In this document: one piece after another, positions 48,128-60,184 of the stretch | How the letters are laid out: each line of letters opens with the position of its first letter | Numbering within the stretch: position 1 is the first letter of the stretch | Assembly: GCF_001704275.1 (NCBI RefSeq) | Contig: NZ_CP011533.1 | Coordinates: 5,022,001-5,086,000, forward strand | DNA from: Streptomyces noursei ATCC 11455 | GTDB taxonomy: Bacteria; Actinomycetota; Actinomycetes; Streptomycetales; Streptomycetaceae | Reading direction: 5' to 3' | Length of the DNA stretch: 64,000 nt | Program-made: the position numbers and the translations under genes | Notes under the pieces: generated by a model | What the model was told of the DNA's origin: nothing | The model's input: the letters and a program-made list of their open reading frames with translations, nothing else | The model's database searches: none

Positions 48128-49462
48128 TCAGCGCGCGGCGCCGGGCGGCGGCGCGGCTTCGTGCGGCGGGGCCGGGGCCGGGTGGCGCGCCGCCGAGGCC
48201 GGGCCGGTTCCCGCCGCCCCGCCCGCCCACGCCTGGAGCAGCGCCGGGCCCGCCCACGGCCGGTAGTGCCACAGGCGCTCCAGGAGTTCGCGTTCCCGGG
48301 CGGCGAAGTCCGGCGGCGGGCCCGTCAGATGGGCCCGGCGGCGGTGGAAGGACAGGGCGGTGGCCAGCGCCGCGTAGGCGGTGACGGCGCGAGCGGCGGC
48401 CGGGCCGTGGGTGCGGCGGGCGATGTCGCGGGCCAGCGCGCGGGTCCGCAGCGAGGCGAGGGCGGTGGGCTCCGGTGGAGCGAGCCAGCCGGTGGCGGTG
48501 TACGGGGCGAGGTAGTCGCGCACCGAGCGCAGCTCCTGCCGCCGGGCCCACAGCGCCAGCCAGGTCAGGACCAGCAGCACCGGGACCATGAACACGCCGT
48601 AGACGGTGAGGAAGCCGGCGTCGCCGAGGTTGGAGGCGGCGTTCCAGATGCCGTGCAGCAGGACCGCGGTGGCCAGGCCGAAGAGGATGAGCGCGGCACG
48701 GGCGCCGCGGCGCCGCGGATAGCGGGTCGCGGCGATCCCGAACGCCAGCCCGGTGAGGATCGTGAAGAGCGGATGCGCGAACGGGGAGACCACGATCCGC
48801 ACGAAGAAGGTGCCGGCGGTGAGGGAGCTCAGACCGGTGTGCCCCAAGGACTGGTCCTCGCCGAAGGCGCTGCCCAGATAGAGGATGTTCTCGGTGAAGG
48901 CGAAGCCGGTCGCGGTGATCCCGGCGATCACGATGCCGTCCGTGATGCCGTCGAAGTCACGGCGGCGGAAGCGGTAGAGCAGCACGACGGCGGCGGCCTT
49001 CATCACCTCCTCGACGATCGGGGCGATGACCGTCGAGCCCCATGCCTGGGCCTCGGTCGGCGACGCGGAGGCGATGTTGTTGGCGAGCCAGTCGGTGGCG
49101 AAGCCGTTGGCCAGGACCGCGACCAAGGTGGCCGCGCACGCCCCCCAGGCGAACGCGAACGCCAGATTCCGCCAGGGCTCGGGCTCGATCCGGTCCAGCC
49201 AGCAGAAGGCCGCGATCAGCAGGGGCACCGGGAAGACGGCTAGTCCGACGCCGACCAGGAGGCCCTCGGTGCCGGTCTGCCGCCGGACGATGCCGAGGAT
49301 GAGCACGCCGGAGAGCGCCAGCAGCGCGGCCAGCGCGATGGCCCGGACGGTCTTGCTGTGCCAGGGCGCGGACCAGCGCCGGGGCCCGCGGTGGGCCTCG
49401 GCGGGTGTGTACGGCGGCGGGCCGGCTGGGTGCTCGGGGAGCGGCGGCAAGGACGGGTACAC
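48128..49462 (-). CDS. PrsW family intramembrane metalloprotease
   Basis: The 444-residue protein has an N-terminal soluble part, about eight membrane helices and a C-terminal soluble helical tail. The family signature EEVMK (in APIVEEVMKAAAVVLL) and the conserved FAFTENILYLG and FAHPLFTILTGLAFG are present; the glutamates and histidines bind the active-site metal. PrsW cuts membrane-spanning anti-sigma factors in Bacillus. Here a membrane-fused ECF sigma gene lies 7 kb away (56719-58677), a tempting but untested pairing. The GTG at 49462 is the first good start after a short gap to trmB. Confidence 0.92.
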   Translation of the reverse strand: MYPSLPPLPEHPAGPPPYTPAEAHRGPRRWSAPWHSKTVRAIALAALLALSGVLILGIVRRQTGTEGLLVGVGLAVFPVPLLIAAFCWLDRIEPEPWRNLAFAFAWGACAATLVAVLANGFATDWLANNIASASPTEAQAWGSTVIAPIVEEVMKAAAVVLLYRFRRRDFDGITDGIVIAGITATGFAFTENILYLGSAFGEDQSLGHTGLSSLTAGTFFVRIVVSPFAHPLFTILTGLAFGIAATRYPRRRGARAALILFGLATAVLLHGIWNAASNLGDAGFLTVYGVFMVPVLLVLTWLALWARRQELRSVRDYLAPYTATGWLAPPEPTALASLRTRALARDIARRTHGPAAARAVTAYAALATALSFHRRRAHLTGPPPDFAARERELLERLWHYRPWAGPALLQAWAGGAAGTGPASAARHPAPAPPHEAAPPPGAAR

Positions 49463-53462: not shown

Positions 53463-54164
53463 GCGCACCCCTCGACACAGCGACAGCCGCCCCGTACCCC
53501 GGGGCATGCGTCCACCCAGAGTAGTTCGCCGGATCCCTACCGTTAAGGGTCGGTGTCTTGGATGGCGAGATTCGTGTTCAAACGGGGGTGCGGGAATTGG
53601 CATGTGCTCCGGGTACGTGTGCCCATGCGCCCGTGCGTGCGCGCTGGCCCCTCAACGACCCCCACGCTTCGATGAGTTCTGCGTGGGTCGGCCCGCTGCA
53701 CTGGATCCAGTGGGCTGGGGGACACCGCCACCTCATTCCCCGCGGGTGGCGGTCCGGTCCGGGAGGCGCAGCCCGCTTCCCGGACCGTCGCGGGGGCCGG
53801 GCGCAGGTCCGGCCCACCGCGCCGCACGGCGCCGTATACGGGACGGTGTCCGGGCGTCAACTCGGCTGCGCGGCAAGGACTTTGGCCGAAAATCGACGGG
53901 TGATGCTTTCACGCCGTCCAGCGCCCCGGGGGCCACACGGGGGGCCACCCGGGGCCGCCGCCGGGCGCAGCCGCCGTCCCGACGGCGCCACACCGCCCCC
54001 GTGCGCCCCTCGCCGCGCCCGCCGCCCCGCCCGCGTCCGGGCCTCCTCCGCCACCTCCCGCAGGCCACCGCCATGGCAGCATGGTCCGCACGACAGCTGG
54101 GATATCCGCTGTACGGGGCGGTCGCCGGCCACCCCTGCGGACGGGGAATCGGGTGGAGGCGGCG
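53463..54164. other. Long divergent intergenic region with a perfect 14-bp palindrome
   Basis: CACTGGATCCAGTG (53699-53712) is perfectly symmetric, and an imperfect GCGTGGGTCG/CGACCCCCACGC repeat lies just upstream (about 53655-53690). Very GC-rich thereafter. No convincing gene; long plus-strand frames here are compositional. Confidence 0.5.
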
Positions 54165-56237
54165 ATGCGCTGGCTGGTGGGGTGGAGCAGTGCCGCGACC
54201 GCCCACAGGGAGTGCCGGACGCTGCTGCCCGTGGGCGCCCAACTCCTGTGGGGCGACCCCGATCCCCTCTGGGCGGTGGGCGACTGGCGGCCCCACGAGG
54301 TGCGCGTCGTCCAGGCCGACCCGGAGACCCGACTCGCCGTCTTCGGGGTCTGCGGCGCCACCGACGACCAGTTGAAGGTGGGCCTGTTCGCCGCCCGTGG
54401 GGGCGCGCTGCGCCACCTGACCGCCTGGCCTGGCAGCTACACCGCCGTCGCCCAAGTGGGCCGCCGGATCACCGTCACCGGAGACCTGGCCGGCGCCCGG
54501 CCCGTCTTCCACACCCGGTGGGCCGGCGGGACCGCCTACGCCACCGCCGCCCTGCCGCTCGCCGACCTCGTCGAGGCCGGCCTCGACGTCGGCCATCTGG
54601 CCGCCCTGCTGGCCTGCCCGGACGCCCCCGAGGCGGTGGGCGCCGGCACCCCGTACGACGGGGTCCGCCGGATCCCGCCCGGCCACGCCCTGGTGCTGCG
54701 CACCGGCAGCAGCGAGATCGCCTCCTACGAACCGCCCGCGTCCCTGGCCGTCGCCGCCCCCCAACTCGCCCCGGAGCAGGCGGTGGACGGCGTCCGGGAG
54801 GCCCTCGTGGAGGCCGTGCGTGCCCGGCTGGCGGCCCCCCGCTTCGCGCCCGACCCGGACGGCCTCGACCGGCTCGACCCAGGCCCGGTGCCCGGCATGG
54901 GCCCCGCGGAGCGGCGCGCGGCGCGCGGCGGACCGGCCCCCGGCATCGGCGCCGACCTCTCCGGGGGCAGCGCCTCCGGAACCCTCGCCCTCCTGGCCGC
55001 CGGCCTCCCCGGGCAGCCCGGCCGGATCAACGGCCACGGCGAGCGCCTGCTGGCGGTCACCTTCAACGACCGCGCCACCCATGGCGACCGGGCCCAGCAC
55101 GAGGCGGAACTGGAGCGTGCCCGCGGCATCGCCGAGGACCCCCGGCTGCACCACGTCGTCGTCGCCGCCGGCGAGGAGGCCCTCCCGTACACCGGCCTGG
55201 ACGCCCTCCCGCTCACCGACGAGTCCGGCCCCTCGCTGACCCTGGCCGGCCGGCACCGCAGGCGGCTGCTGTCCGGCGGCGCCGACCACTTCGTCGGGAA
55301 CGGCGCCCGCCAGGTCCTCGACGCCCACCCCGCCCGCCTCGCCGACCTCCTCATGGACCGCCGCCGGCGCCATCTGCTGCGCCCGGTCACCGCGCTGGCC
55401 AAGGCCGACGGCCCCTCCGCGCACTCGGTGCTGGTCCCGTTCACCGTCTACCGGGCCGCCCGGAAGCTCGCCCGCACCCCCTACGCCACCGGGATGGCCG
55501 AGGCCGCGCGCCACCTGATGGAGCGCCGGTTCGCCGACGAGCCGGTGGCCGGCGGCGCGGTGGACGCCTCCCTGGCCGCGCTCGCCTGGTGCCGCCCCGG
55601 GCCCGCGGCCCGCTGGCTCACGGGGGAGGCGCTGGCCGAAGTATCGGTTCGCCTCGGGGACGCGGCGCACCGTTCGCCCGCCGCGGGCCGCCCCGGCGAA
55701 CGACGGGCCCGCGCCGCCCTCGCCCGCCAGGCCGCCGACCACCGGATCTTCGAGCAGGCCGTCGAGGTCCGCAGCCAGCGGCTGCACGCCCCCTTCCTGG
55801 ACAACCAGGTGGTGCTGGCCTGCCGCGCCCTGCCGGACACCCTGCGGGTGCAGCCGGGCGCCCGGGCCGCCGTCCTGCGCGCCGTCCTGGCCGGCGCCGG
55901 CGTGCGGTACCTGCCGTCCGGCTGGGGCGCCGCCGCGCACCACACCCACACCGCCGCGGTCCGCGCCGGACTGCGCGCCGCGGTCGGCCCGTTGCTCCAG
56001 CTCTTCGACGCGCCACTGCTGGCGGACGCCGGCCTCGTCGAGGCGCGGGTGGTCCGCCGCGCGCTCCGCGCGGCGGCCGAGGGCGCCCCGGTGCCCCTGG
56101 ACGGTCTGGCCGAACTGGTCGCCGCCGAAGTGTGGTTGCGCCGGCTGCTGGCCCGCCGCGGCTCGTGCTGGACGGGCGCGCAGGCGCCCCGGCAACGGGC
56201 GCTCGCCGGGGGCGTGGTGCGCGCGCGGCTCTCCTGA
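54165..56237 (+). CDS. Asparagine-synthase-like protein with altered PP-loop
   Basis: ATG 54165 has GGAGG 6 nt upstream. The 690-residue protein has an asparagine-synthetase architecture: an N-terminal Ntn-like domain (VTGDLAGARPVFH, YDGVRRIPPGHAL) and a C-terminal synthetase-like domain with LSGGADHFVGN and the helical HIFEQAVEVRSQRLHAPFLDNQVV typical of late helices. But the N-terminal nucleophile Cys is absent (MRW), and the PP-loop reads SGGSAS (266-271) instead of SGGxDS, so the Asp that helps bind Mg-ATP is Ala. Lasso-peptide cyclases and beta-lactam synthetases share this fold but keep the Asp. No precursor peptide gene is evident. I infer a non-standard or pseudo-enzyme. Confidence 0.7.
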   Translation: MRWLVGWSSAATAHRECRTLLPVGAQLLWGDPDPLWAVGDWRPHEVRVVQADPETRLAVFGVCGATDDQLKVGLFAARGGALRHLTAWPGSYTAVAQVGRRITVTGDLAGARPVFHTRWAGGTAYATAALPLADLVEAGLDVGHLAALLACPDAPEAVGAGTPYDGVRRIPPGHALVLRTGSSEIASYEPPASLAVAAPQLAPEQAVDGVREALVEAVRARLAAPRFAPDPDGLDRLDPGPVPGMGPAERRAARGGPAPGIGADLSGGSASGTLALLAAGLPGQPGRINGHGERLLAVTFNDRATHGDRAQHEAELERARGIAEDPRLHHVVVAAGEEALPYTGLDALPLTDESGPSLTLAGRHRRRLLSGGADHFVGNGARQVLDAHPARLADLLMDRRRRHLLRPVTALAKADGPSAHSVLVPFTVYRAARKLARTPYATGMAEAARHLMERRFADEPVAGGAVDASLAALAWCRPGPAARWLTGEALAEVSVRLGDAAHRSPAAGRPGERRARAALARQAADHRIFEQAVEVRSQRLHAPFLDNQVVLACRALPDTLRVQPGARAAVLRAVLAGAGVRYLPSGWGAAAHHTHTAAVRAGLRAAVGPLLQLFDAPLLADAGLVEARVVRRALRAAAEGAPVPLDGLAELVAAEVWLRRLLARRGSCWTGAQAPRQRALAGGVVRARLS

Positions 56238-56718: not shown

Positions 56719-58677
56719 TCACCGACAACTGATCTGCGACCGCGCCCAGTCGCCCAGCGCCACCAGATCGCCCGCGCTCTCCGGCTCGACCACCAGGCGC
56801 AGCGTCTTGCGCCCGGCCAACGGGACGTGCACCGGCACCGCCGACTCCCCGCCGCGCAGGACCGGCGACCGCCACAGCCGCACCCCGTCCCCGTACACCG
56901 AGAAGCGCAGCGCGCCCAGGCCCAGGCTGAGGTCGTCCACGCCGGCCACCGCGTCGTACGCCGTGCACTGCCGGTTGAGATCGATGACCACCGAGGACGA
57001 GGCGTGCACGCTCACCCCGTGGGGATAGGCGGTCCCGCCGATGCTCGGGCGGTACCGCTTCCACAGCCAGCCGCTGTCGAGGGCCCGTACTTCCGGCTTG
57101 CTGCCGTCCCCCATGAAGTCGTACGCCAACGCACTGACCTGATACGCCGTCGTCGGCGGCGTGGGGGTGGGCGTGGGCGTGGGCGTCGGTGTCGGGGTCG
57201 GCGTGGGCGTCGGGGTGGGCGTCGGTGTTGGAGTCGGCGTGGGCGTCGGCGGTGCCGGGGTGGGCGTCGGCGTCGGTGTCGGGGCGGGCTCGGACGGCGT
57301 CGGGGTGGGCATCGGCGTGCGGGACGGCGTCGGCTCGGTGACCGGCGCGCCCACCGGCGGCCGGGGGGTGTGCGACGGCGGCGGGGCCGGCACGGGCGGC
57401 GCGACCGGCGCCGGCGGGTGCGGTTGTGCCCGCGGGGCCGGTTGCGGCGACCCGGCCAGCGCGAACGCCAGCGCCGCCCCCGCCGCGACCACCAGCCCGG
57501 CACCGATACCGATCTTCACCGGCGCGGCCAGCCCCTCGCCCACGGCCGCCCCGCCGCCGGCGCCGCCCGCCGTACCGGAACCGGACCCCGCGGCGGCCGC
57601 GGCCACCCCGGCACCCGCCGCGGCCCCGGCGCCGGCGATCCCGGCCACCGCGGCGGCACCCTTGACGACGTACCCGGCCGCGAACCAGCCGATGACCGCC
57701 ACCGGCAGCACCGCCCCGATCCGCTGGTTGAGGTCGACGACCTCCAGCGCCGCCCCGCGGCACCGGGCGCACTCCTCCAGATGCTTGCGCAGCCCCCGCT
57801 CGGCCCGCATCCGCAATCCGCCCCGGGCGTACGCGCCGAGCCGGTCGGCATAGCGCGCGCAGTCGCCGCCCGCGGTCAGCGACTGGCTCACATGCGCCTG
57901 CAGATACGCCTGCTTGAGCCCTTCCCGGGCGCGGTGGGCCAGCACGGCGGTGGCGTTGGCGGTCAGCCCGAGCAGCGGTGCGACCTCGCTCGGCGACTCG
58001 TCCTCGATGGTGGTGTGCCACAGCACCGTCTGATAGCGCTCCGGCAGGCTGCGGAACGCCTGCACCGCCATGGTCTGCTCGGCCTCGTGCATCGCCCGGA
58101 CGTCCGCGCCCGGATCCAGCGTGCTGTCGTCCAGGGACGACCCGGCCGCCGACACCGCGAACACCGCGAAGTCCTCGACCAACTGCTCCCGTCGGGTGGT
58201 CCTCGCCCAGGCCGCGGCGACCCGCCGCACGGTCGTCAGCAGATACGCGCGCACCGCGGAGTCCGGCCCCGCCCCGCCGCGCACCGCCTGCAGGGTGCGC
58301 GCGAAGACCTCGCCGGTCAGATCCTCGGCGGTGTGGGCGTCCCGGCAGCAGCCGCGCGCATACCGGCGCACCGCCTCGGCGTGCCGGCGGTACAGCTCCT
58401 CGTAGGCGCTGTCGTCACCGGCCCGCATCGCGGCGACCAACTCGGCGTCGGACGGCGGCAGATCCGCGTCCGTGCGCTCGCCGGGCACCCCCACCGGCTC
58501 GTCCGACGGCATCCCGCCGTGCCGGGAGCGCCTGCGCTGCGCCGGCACGCTGGGCCCGGCGTCCTCCAGGCCACCGCGCGGGGGCGTCGCCCCCGGCGGC
58601 CCGGTCCGGCCCGGCACCTGATCCGAGCGGCGTCCCGTGGTCTCGCCACGCCGCTCGTCCCGCCCGTCAACACCCAT
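56719..58677 (-). CDS. ECF-type sigma factor fused to zinc-finger, membrane helix, TP linker and NPCBM domain
   Basis: From ATG 58677 (GGGAG 8 nt upstream; GTG 58701 is possible) the protein has 652 residues. Order: disordered head; sigma region 2 (about 80-155, AYEELYRRHAEAVRRYARG); sigma region 4 (about 205-262, LPERYQTVLWHTTIEDESPS, VAPLLGLTANATAVLAHRAR); a zinc-finger-like anti-sigma segment with HxxxCxxC (His299, Cys303, Cys306); Ala/Gly-rich stretch; one membrane helix (388-408); a linker with some 25 Thr-Pro repeats (450-508); and a NPCBM/NEW2 carbohydrate-binding module (512-652: YDFMGDGSKPEV, AYPHGVSVHASS, FSVYGDGVRLW). I infer a membrane-tethered sigma factor that senses sugar or wall polymers outside. 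ECF families with such extensions are described in actinobacteria. Confidence 0.88.
   Translation of the reverse strand: MGVDGRDERRGETTGRRSDQVPGRTGPPGATPPRGGLEDAGPSVPAQRRRSRHGGMPSDEPVGVPGERTDADLPPSDAELVAAMRAGDDSAYEELYRRHAEAVRRYARGCCRDAHTAEDLTGEVFARTLQAVRGGAGPDSAVRAYLLTTVRRVAAAWARTTRREQLVEDFAVFAVSAAGSSLDDSTLDPGADVRAMHEAEQTMAVQAFRSLPERYQTVLWHTTIEDESPSEVAPLLGLTANATAVLAHRAREGLKQAYLQAHVSQSLTAGGDCARYADRLGAYARGGLRMRAERGLRKHLEECARCRGAALEVVDLNQRIGAVLPVAVIGWFAAGYVVKGAAAVAGIAGAGAAAGAGVAAAAAGSGSGTAGGAGGGAAVGEGLAAPVKIGIGAGLVVAAGAALAFALAGSPQPAPRAQPHPPAPVAPPVPAPPPSHTPRPPVGAPVTEPTPSRTPMPTPTPSEPAPTPTPTPTPAPPTPTPTPTPTPTPTPTPTPTPTPTPTPTPTPPTTAYQVSALAYDFMGDGSKPEVRALDSGWLWKRYRPSIGGTAYPHGVSVHASSSVVIDLNRQCTAYDAVAGVDDLSLGLGALRFSVYGDGVRLWRSPVLRGGESAVPVHVPLAGRKTLRLVVEPESAGDLVALGDWARSQISCR
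57161..57310. repeat. Thr-Pro-coding minisatellite in the sigma-factor fusion gene
   Basis: On the plus strand, tandem GTGGGCGTGGGC and GGTGTCGGGGTC-type 6-mers; on the minus (coding) strand, Thr-Pro codons. Length is likely to vary between strains. Confidence 0.85.
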
Positions 58678-58952
58678 CGCCGAGGCTCCCGAACCCGTCA
58701 CACCGCAACACCGCGCAAGCGTGCCACACCCCTGGCCCGGGCTTCAGGGCCCCGGTGGGCAACCACTCATCCGGGGCGCCCGCACTGGCGTTCACCCGCA
58801 CGGGGCGCCCCGCACCGGTCGGGACCACCGCATCGCAGGGATGCCGGCGCCCCACCGGGACGCCCCGCACTCGGGGCCTCCCGGTGCCGCCACCGGCTCC
58901 ACGCGGGCGGTTCGTGCCCCGCCCGCCGTCATGGAGCCGGCCGCCGCGCCTG

Positions 58953-59747
58953 TCACGTCGCGGGACGCGACCGCAGCCCTTCCAGCAGGATCTCCAGCAA
59001 CCGGGCGGAGGCCGCCTGCTGCTGCCCGGGATCGGGCAGCGCGGGCGCACCCGTGGCGATGACCAGCAGCACGTCGGAGACCGTGACATCGGTCCGCAGC
59101 GCACCCGCCGCCCGGGCCCGCTCGACCAGCCGTCCGACGACGTCCAGCAGCGCCTGCCCGCCCGGCGTCTCCTCGGCCTCGGGGCCGCTCCGCGGCCCGT
59201 CCGCCTCGCCGGGCGCCATCCGCTGCAGCGGCACCCGGGCCTCGGTGCCGCCCTCCGGCACCCGCGGCTCGGCCGCGCCGTCCGCCCGCTCCTCGCTCGC
59301 GCCGACCCGCAGGATGCCCGGCGGCAGCAGCCGCCCGGCGCCCGAGGCGACCGACGTGCGCAGGAACCGCGCCAGCGCCGACCACGGATCGTCCTCCTGA
59401 CCCAGTGCGGCCCGTGCCTGCTCGGTCAGCCGGGAGGTCTCCTCCTCGGCTATCCGCCGGACCAGGACGTCCTTGCTCGGGAAGCGGCGGTAGACCGTCC
59501 CGACCCCGACCCGGGCGCGACGCGCCACGTCCTCCATCGGCGCGCCGTACCCCAGTTCGCCGAAGACCTCTCGGGCCGCCCGCAGCACATGCTCCAGATT
59601 GCGCTGGGCATCGACCCGCAGGGGTGTGCTCCGGCCGTTGAGGCCGGTCGCCGCGCCCGTTCCGTTGCCGCCGGCGCCGTTGACACCGTCGGAAGCGGCA
59701 GCGGTCATCGTGGCCGCCGCCGACCATTGAGAGCCCTGAATGTGCAT
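58953..59747 (-). CDS. atrA: TetR family regulator AtrA
   Basis: The 264-residue protein starts at ATG 59747 (MHIQGSQWSAAATM; GGGGGATC upstream) after a disordered 40-residue head. The TetR HTH is VLRAAREVFGELGYG and PMEDVARRARVGVGTVYRRFPSKDVLVRRI (about 57-102). The C-terminal ligand domain is long and loop-rich. The position next to a type II NADH dehydrogenase gene, and the sequence layout, match AtrA (recalled as SCO4118 in S. coelicolor), which activates actII-ORF4 and amino-sugar uptake genes and links antibiotic production to metabolism. I cannot verify identity by alignment. A promoter with TTGACG lies at 59833-59862. Confidence 0.82.
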   Translation of the reverse strand: MHIQGSQWSAAATMTAAASDGVNGAGGNGTGAATGLNGRSTPLRVDAQRNLEHVLRAAREVFGELGYGAPMEDVARRARVGVGTVYRRFPSKDVLVRRIAEEETSRLTEQARAALGQEDDPWSALARFLRTSVASGAGRLLPPGILRVGASEERADGAAEPRVPEGGTEARVPLQRMAPGEADGPRSGPEAEETPGGQALLDVVGRLVERARAAGALRTDVTVSDVLLVIATGAPALPDPGQQQAASARLLEILLEGLRSRPAT

Positions 59748-60184
59748 AAGTGATCCCCCGGTAATGACGTCTCCCCCCGGAGACTCCCCGCCCTGACGGT
59801 CGGGGCGACCCGACAAGAGGGTGCACCCCGACGACATACGAACATAGTTGAGCCCGCGTCAAGATTGAAGGGGGCGCTCCGTACGCCGTGCCCCCCGTTC
59901 GGCCCAATGGACCCGATCCGTCCTGCTCGTCCTTCCGCTCACCTCGCGCCGAACTCCGCCTGACCAGCGTACTTCGCCCCGCTCGGCCGGAATGTCCCGC
60001 TCCGCACCGCGCCTCGTACCGGACATACTTTTCGACCGGCCTGTGGACAAAGCCGTCCCGGCGGTGCGTCATGGAACAGTGCTGTGCTGTCCGGGGGCAC
60101 AGCGCCCGAAGGTGGCCGCGCGCGCCGGCCCGGCCACCCGCTCGGTGGCGCCCCGGCCTGGTCGACACCGCGAGGAGAACCTCT
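59748..60184. promoter_or_regulatory. Divergent atrA-ndh regulatory region
   Basis: It should hold both promoters. The atrA promoter is visible (see 59833-59862). On the ndh side, CATACT at about 60022-60027 is a possible -10. No gene found; AtrA may bind here, but I see only a half-site-like GGAATG (59990-59995). Confidence 0.45.
59833..59862 (-). promoter_or_regulatory. atrA promoter
   Basis: On the minus strand TTGACG (59857-59862), 18-nt spacer, TATGTC (59833-59838). It would give a leader of about 80 nt. Confidence 0.5.

Follow-up and report, generated by a model that had tools for sequence, protein, structure and literature searches.

A Streptomyces noursei ECF52 sigma factor fused to a zinc anti-sigma domain, a probable membrane tether, and a putative glycan-binding module

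We analyzed a 64,000-nucleotide window of the genome of Streptomyces noursei ATCC 11455 (contig NZ_CP011533.1, positions 5,022,001 to 5,086,000), focusing on a gene of the minus strand at 56719..58677. Judging from its architecture and position, the product is an extracytoplasmic function (ECF) sigma factor of group ECF52 and the ortholog of SCO4117 from Streptomyces coelicolor. The open reading frame at 56719-58701 (-) reads 660 amino acids (aa) from a GTG at 58701. However, an alignment of 121 homologs placed the consensus start eight residues later, at M9, which corresponds to the ATG at 58677 proposed in the initial annotation and yields a protein of 652 aa. Residue numbers follow the 660-aa reading throughout, even where the 652-aa product is meant.

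The domains lie along this chain in the order that the initial annotation had proposed, and the parts and coordinates that it gave were confirmed, with Pfam and NCBIfam matches to sigma regions 2 and 4, zf-HC2, and NPCBM. Sigma regions 2 and 4 occupy residues 83-275 (57877..58455, minus strand), with a Sigma70_r2 match at 103-171 (E = 6e-11), a Sigma70_r4_2 match at 214-260 that falls slightly below its cut-off (24.8 versus 25.7 bits), and a sigma70-ECF match (TIGR02937) that passes its own (64.1 versus 42.9 bits). The protein thus has regions 2 and 4 only, as expected of an ECF sigma factor. Region 4 is followed by a zinc-binding class I anti-sigma domain (zf-HC2/ASDI; 57757..57861, minus strand), matched at 281-315 with 23.7 bits against a cut-off of 22.2. 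Its ligands C281, H307, C311, and C314 are unchanged across all 93 aligned rows and form the zinc-type motif Hx3Cx2C with an upstream cysteine, at what we take to be the spacing of that motif. Hx3Cx2C is also the ASDI motif used in PMC7406223 (here and below, citations refer to passages of the papers). Next come two hydrophobic segments, H1 (residues 326-347; 57661..57726, minus strand) and H2 (residues 395-417; 57451..57519, minus strand), and a Thr/Pro-rich linker (residues 418-517; 57151..57450, minus strand). Of the roughly 25 Thr-Pro repeats initially reported, we counted 25 dipeptides in the protein and 24 in the linker, the longest run being 15. A Pro-rich stretch after the transmembrane segment or segments, here defined by hydrophobicity, is a hallmark of ECF52. 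The C terminus carries a putative glycan-binding module of the CBM51 type (NPCBM; residues 518-660; 56722..57150, minus strand), matched at 553-657 (E = 3e-28). The assignment is to the CBM51/NPCBM beta-sandwich at the level of fold, and C579 and C659 are invariant.

The gene and its surroundings are conserved among relatives. We compared the best 80 of 237 loci and a sample of 296 genomes from the class. The closest named relative was S. noursei, with 96% over the best segment. In all 80 loci, the sigma gene has upstream of it a gene for a TetR-family regulator (58953..59837, minus strand, in the window), which by its position appears to be atrA (SCO4118). Also upstream, an NDH-2-like gene is kept in all 78 loci with room for it. 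Of the 80 loci, 14 run beyond the contig end and 66 could be evaluated: 62 of these encode the NPCBM module and the sigma part in a single frame, three have a frame or stop difference, and one lacks an NPCBM match. The fusion is therefore no artifact of accidental read-through. Zinc-finger plus H1 profile matches were found in 28 of 28 same-genus genomes, and in 24 of these the sigma and NPCBM matches share position and frame length. The fusion appears to be split between contigs in two (G101 and G208), and the protein lacks NPCBM in the other two (G089 and G199). The 9.8-Mb genome of the strain itself has one NPCBM match and one zinc-finger/H1 profile match.

In three loci (L036, L037, and L045), the NPCBM module is separated from the sigma part by a stop or lies in a different frame. 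A similar split was noted in S. clavuligerus, where it was attributed to a possible sequence error in the Pro-rich region (PMC5826349).

Where the initial annotation had described one membrane helix, we found both hydrophobic segments (~326-347 and 395-417) after the zinc finger in 121 of 121 homologs. Their estimated insertion energies (dG), whose parameter values are a caveat to the topology proposed below, were under 2 kcal/mol for both segments in all 121, with medians of +0.4 for H1 and -0.2 for H2 and values below 1 for H2 in 119. The Ala/Gly stretch between them (350-375) was rejected as a third span, since its median dG was 2.6 and just 9 of 121 homologs had values under 2. We then scored 45 fused sigma-zinc-finger relatives from across the class (46 frames were found, and one with the motif outside the searched stretch was dropped), many of which are akin to each other, so that the counts are not independent. 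H2 was predicted to insert (dG < 1) in 39 of 45 relatives, or 37 when the search was narrowed to 112 residues, versus 22 of 45 for H1. Because of this difference, H2 is probably the sole membrane span, with NPCBM outside. In a control scan beyond H2, 0 of 43 tails had a dG below 1. Of the initial annotation, the membrane tether, the domain order, and a probable outside location of NPCBM are supported.

H1 may instead be the fourth helix of the anti-sigma domain. The class I anti-sigma domain comprises four helices; the fourth follows a flexible linker and binds sigma region 2, in some groups by means of a conserved W or Y (PMC7406223). H1 sits at the place expected of this helix, and its residues P333, A335, G338, W339, and K347 are invariant in 93 rows, while H2 keeps mainly its hydrophobic nature. 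Comparison of a profile of the region with solved anti-sigma domains gave matches that were both weak, to RsiW (E = 0.053) and to 3hug_B (E = 0.011), which is presumably a mycobacterial anti-sigma domain. AlphaFold2 models, which reached a predicted template modeling score (pTM) of 0.39 for the full chain and 0.70 for the sigma plus anti-sigma piece, did not confirm this role of H1; VIA-align coverage was scant between the sigma part and NPCBM.

The linker is 100 aa long in the window protein and 79-136 aa (median, 100) in homologs, with ~45% Pro. Across the 121 homologs, Thr-Pro counts range from 1 to 24 (median, 8), and no other homolog has an unbroken run as long as the 15 of the window protein, the longest in the other 120 being 5. 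Linker length is thus roughly kept and the number of Thr-Pro repeats is not, so that the idea of repeat number setting the reach through the wall is not supported.

Much of what these features suggest is already in print. SCO4117, the first characterized ECF52 sigma factor, has an ECF sigma domain, a zinc finger, a transmembrane region, a Pro-rich stretch, and a carbohydrate-binding module, and it adjoins atrA/SCO4118 (PMC5826349). Its knockout sporulates and produces actinorhodin late and makes less calcium-dependent antibiotic (CDA) (PMC5826349). Activation by a carbohydrate-triggered proteolytic cascade or a conformational change was put forward by Pinto and Mascher (2016, as cited in PMC5826349), and ECF48, ECF52, and ECF53 have been placed with the sigma factors for which proteolytic activation is expected, IutY being the characterized case (PMC8999054). 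A Streptomyces venezuelae sigma factor with regions 2 and 4 and NPCBM has also been listed (PMC11256431). Architecture, knockout phenotype, and proteolysis model having been published, our interpretation is largely anticipated, and the description of the system as poorly known does not hold, since SCO4117 has been studied by knockout, truncation, and profiling. The idea of a self-contained sigma/anti-sigma receptor is supported, the same model having been printed earlier (Pinto and Mascher 2016 via PMC5826349; PMC8999054).

Starting from the observed architecture, conservation, in-frame fusion, and synteny, we favor, with reasonable though not high confidence, a one-protein receptor-to-promoter system of the SCO4117 type, in which self-inhibition, topology, ligand, and proteolysis would be as follows. 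In the cytoplasm, the zinc anti-sigma domain would keep sigma regions 2 and 4 of its own chain inactive, and H1 might act on sigma region 2 as anti-sigma helix 4. H2 would cross the membrane once, and the Pro-rich linker would extend into the wall and carry the CBM51-type module outside, where it might bind a wall or environmental glycan. This signal would lead to cleavage outside or within the membrane and then to cytoplasmic trimming of the anti-sigma part, since a cut within the membrane would presumably not by itself separate the anti-sigma domain from sigma. The released sigma domain would turn on development and antibiotic genes. As SCO4117 governs the timing of sporulation and antibiotics in S. 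coelicolor (PMC5826349), a wall or foreign glycan would, if the outside module reads it, offer a direct means of influencing development and the production of antibiotics.

Several points weigh against this reading. H1 has a dG below 1 in 115 of 121 homologs and is therefore itself insertable, in which case there would be two spans and NPCBM would lie inside. AlphaFold2 confidence drops across H1 in both models (from 69 to 41 and from 73 to 49), and the second model breaks the helix near residue 337, within H1. Orthology to SCO4117 rests on architecture, position, and PMC5826349 rather than on an alignment to the SCO4117 sequence. Two same-genus orthologs (L161 and L162) lack an NPCBM match and carry other tails after the Pro-rich linker, which shows that the module can be dispensed with in some cases. 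Finally, an S. coelicolor strain with only the sigma part of SCO4117 was intermediate rather than hyperactive: it was later than the wild type and sporulated faster than the knockout (PMC5826349). If H1 and H2 both crossed the membrane, NPCBM and the Thr/Pro linker would be cytoplasmic, only a short Gly/Ala/Ser loop would lie outside, and the signal detected by NPCBM would be a sugar or protein inside the cell. Besides the low energies of both segments in all 121 orthologs and of H1 in 22 of the 45 fused relatives, this topology is consistent with the variable helix number described for ECF52 (PMC5826349) and with the intracellular NPCBM sensors that have been proposed (PMC8195603). We nevertheless consider it unlikely. 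H1 exceeds 1.5 kcal/mol in 14 of the 45 relatives, and in a group of paralogs (L198-L202) from five genomes of the same genus it contains an acidic residue and has a dG of 1.7 to 3.5, yet the long tails remain. The invariant cysteine pair of NPCBM and the occurrence of this module on PASTA-bearing kinases of other families (4 of 10 scanned) also argue for an outside location.

The intermediate phenotype of the sigma-only strain, which was still delayed, also speaks against the initial suggestion that freeing the sigma part is in itself the activating step. It would fit a protein that is not cleaved, in which outside binding relayed through H2 loosens the anti-sigma domain and sigma acts at the membrane, or in which NPCBM is mainly a wall anchor. 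The failure of the truncation to restore wild-type timing favors such a mechanism, and passages of PMC5826349 allow conformational change as an alternative and name no protease. However, sigma must reach its promoters, and IutY, the sole experimentally characterized fused protein of this kind, is cut by Prc and RseP (PMC8999054), so we regard activation without proteolysis as improbable. If the SCO4117-type protein is cleaved, a candidate site-1 protease is PrsW (48128-49462), whose gene was confirmed by Pfam (E = 1e-53), although it scored far under the NCBIfam equivalog cut-off (54.4 versus 225 bits). It is the sole PrsW match in the strain's genome, which has three site-2 (M50) loci. In 31 loci, PrsW lies ~6.9-9.5 kb past the point where the sigma match ends. 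PrsW matches occur in 72 of the 77 genomes that have the fusion profile versus 94 of 219 without it, and in a genome of another family (G115, C1:215380-221993) PrsW lies 6.4 kb from a fusion match, the one close pair outside Streptomyces among the 45 genomes compared. Yet this co-occurrence is confounded by family, and the proximity in Streptomyces reflects core synteny, with a trmB-prsW block in 18 of 20 loci. In 45 genomes of other families with both, PrsW was within 50 kb of a fusion match in 2 among the matches listed (G115, 6.4 kb; G248, 47 kb). In G285, PrsW was 487 kb away. Five of the 77 fusion-profile genomes had no PrsW match (G234, of the same genus; G042, 85% complete; G146, in which the frame was uninspected; G027; and G249). 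It is thus quite doubtful that PrsW, the candidate named in the initial annotation, is the dedicated site-1 protease.

The SCO4117-type reading places the window protein among several known systems. It shares with SCO4117 all five parts and the atrA neighbor (PMC5826349) and, in a comparison made without direct alignment, differs in the unusually regular run of 15 Thr-Pro in its linker. ECF53 and ECF48 proteins likewise have a fused zinc anti-sigma domain, a membrane helix, and a long C-terminal extension (PMC8999054). They are groups other than ECF52, and our fused relatives were compared without group assignment. IutY (ECF243) of Pseudomonas putida resembles it in the fusion of sigma to a membrane anti-sigma part and in proteolytic activation, but it serves iron-siderophore signaling, and the passages of PMC8999054 do not mention a carbohydrate-binding module. 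Bacillus subtilis offers RsiW, a zinc-binding class I anti-sigma factor to which the profile match was weak, and RsiV, an anti-sigma factor that is itself the ligand receptor before site-1 cleavage (PMC5014341). Unlike the window protein, both are separate from their sigma factors.

Other tails occur on the same chassis, and NPCBM occurs on other receptors. Pfam scans of 44 sigma-zinc-finger proteins identified ricin-type lectin domains in eight, Ig in two, bacterial Ig in two, NPCBM in one, and DUF642, fn3, DUF11, CARDB, collagen, and others in one each. Carbohydrate-binding or glycoside hydrolase domains have been predicted in some ECF52/53 proteins (PMC10766802), and this variety is therefore not new in kind. 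Long NPCBM frames outside Streptomyces were considered as further sigma fusions and rejected: 20 regions were examined, 17 of which gave 18 NPCBM-profile frames, and 0 of 18 had a sigma domain. All 10 of the frames that were scanned with Pfam (606-830 aa; L115, L117-L124, and L129, from actinobacteria outside the window's genus) were Ser/Thr kinases with a C-terminal NPCBM, and four of these had PASTA domains. We tentatively raise the possibility that actinobacterial receptors draw on interchangeable outside lectin modules, with NPCBM on self-inhibited sigma factors in Streptomyces and on kinases elsewhere, and with ricin-type lectin, Ig, or NPCBM tails on a sigma-anti-sigma chassis. These would form one glycan-receptor family for sensing the wall or neighbors, with H1 as a built-in anti-sigma helix. 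The sharing of NPCBM with kinases suggests that both receptor kinds read the same sort of polymer. Tails in the fused proteins L161-L205 extend up to ~945 aa past the last hydrophobic peak.

Upstream of the sigma gene, comparison of upstream regions revealed a conserved element, TGTGGCACGCTTGCGCGGTGTT (58707..58728, minus strand), which is a candidate promoter or operator. The start was readable in 56 of 81 upstream regions, including that of the window. Allowing two choices at three positions, TGTGGCACGCT was found in 45 of these 56, at exactly -54 in 34 of them and at -51 in the window. Exact TGTGGCACGCT was present in 22 of 56, out of a total of 24 occurrences over 80 loci (2.69 Mb, both strands), and the extended element TGTGGCACGCTTGCGCGGTGTT is single copy in the strain's own genome with up to two mismatches allowed. 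The element differs from the published SCO4117 promoter motif, CSGY-N17-SRHA. That motif had 207 matches in the window, near the 193 ± 14 expected, and so was of no use in finding targets. An ECF-like upstream site, GAAC-N17-GGATGA, was also rejected, its relaxed form occurring in just 4 of the 56 regions.

Downstream of the sigma gene, an asparagine-synthase-like gene (54081-56237, plus strand) is present in 62 of 63 loci with room for it. The best NCBIfam match of its product is to albusnodin/ikarugamycin macrolactam cyclase, with 228.6 bits, under the cut-off of 300.
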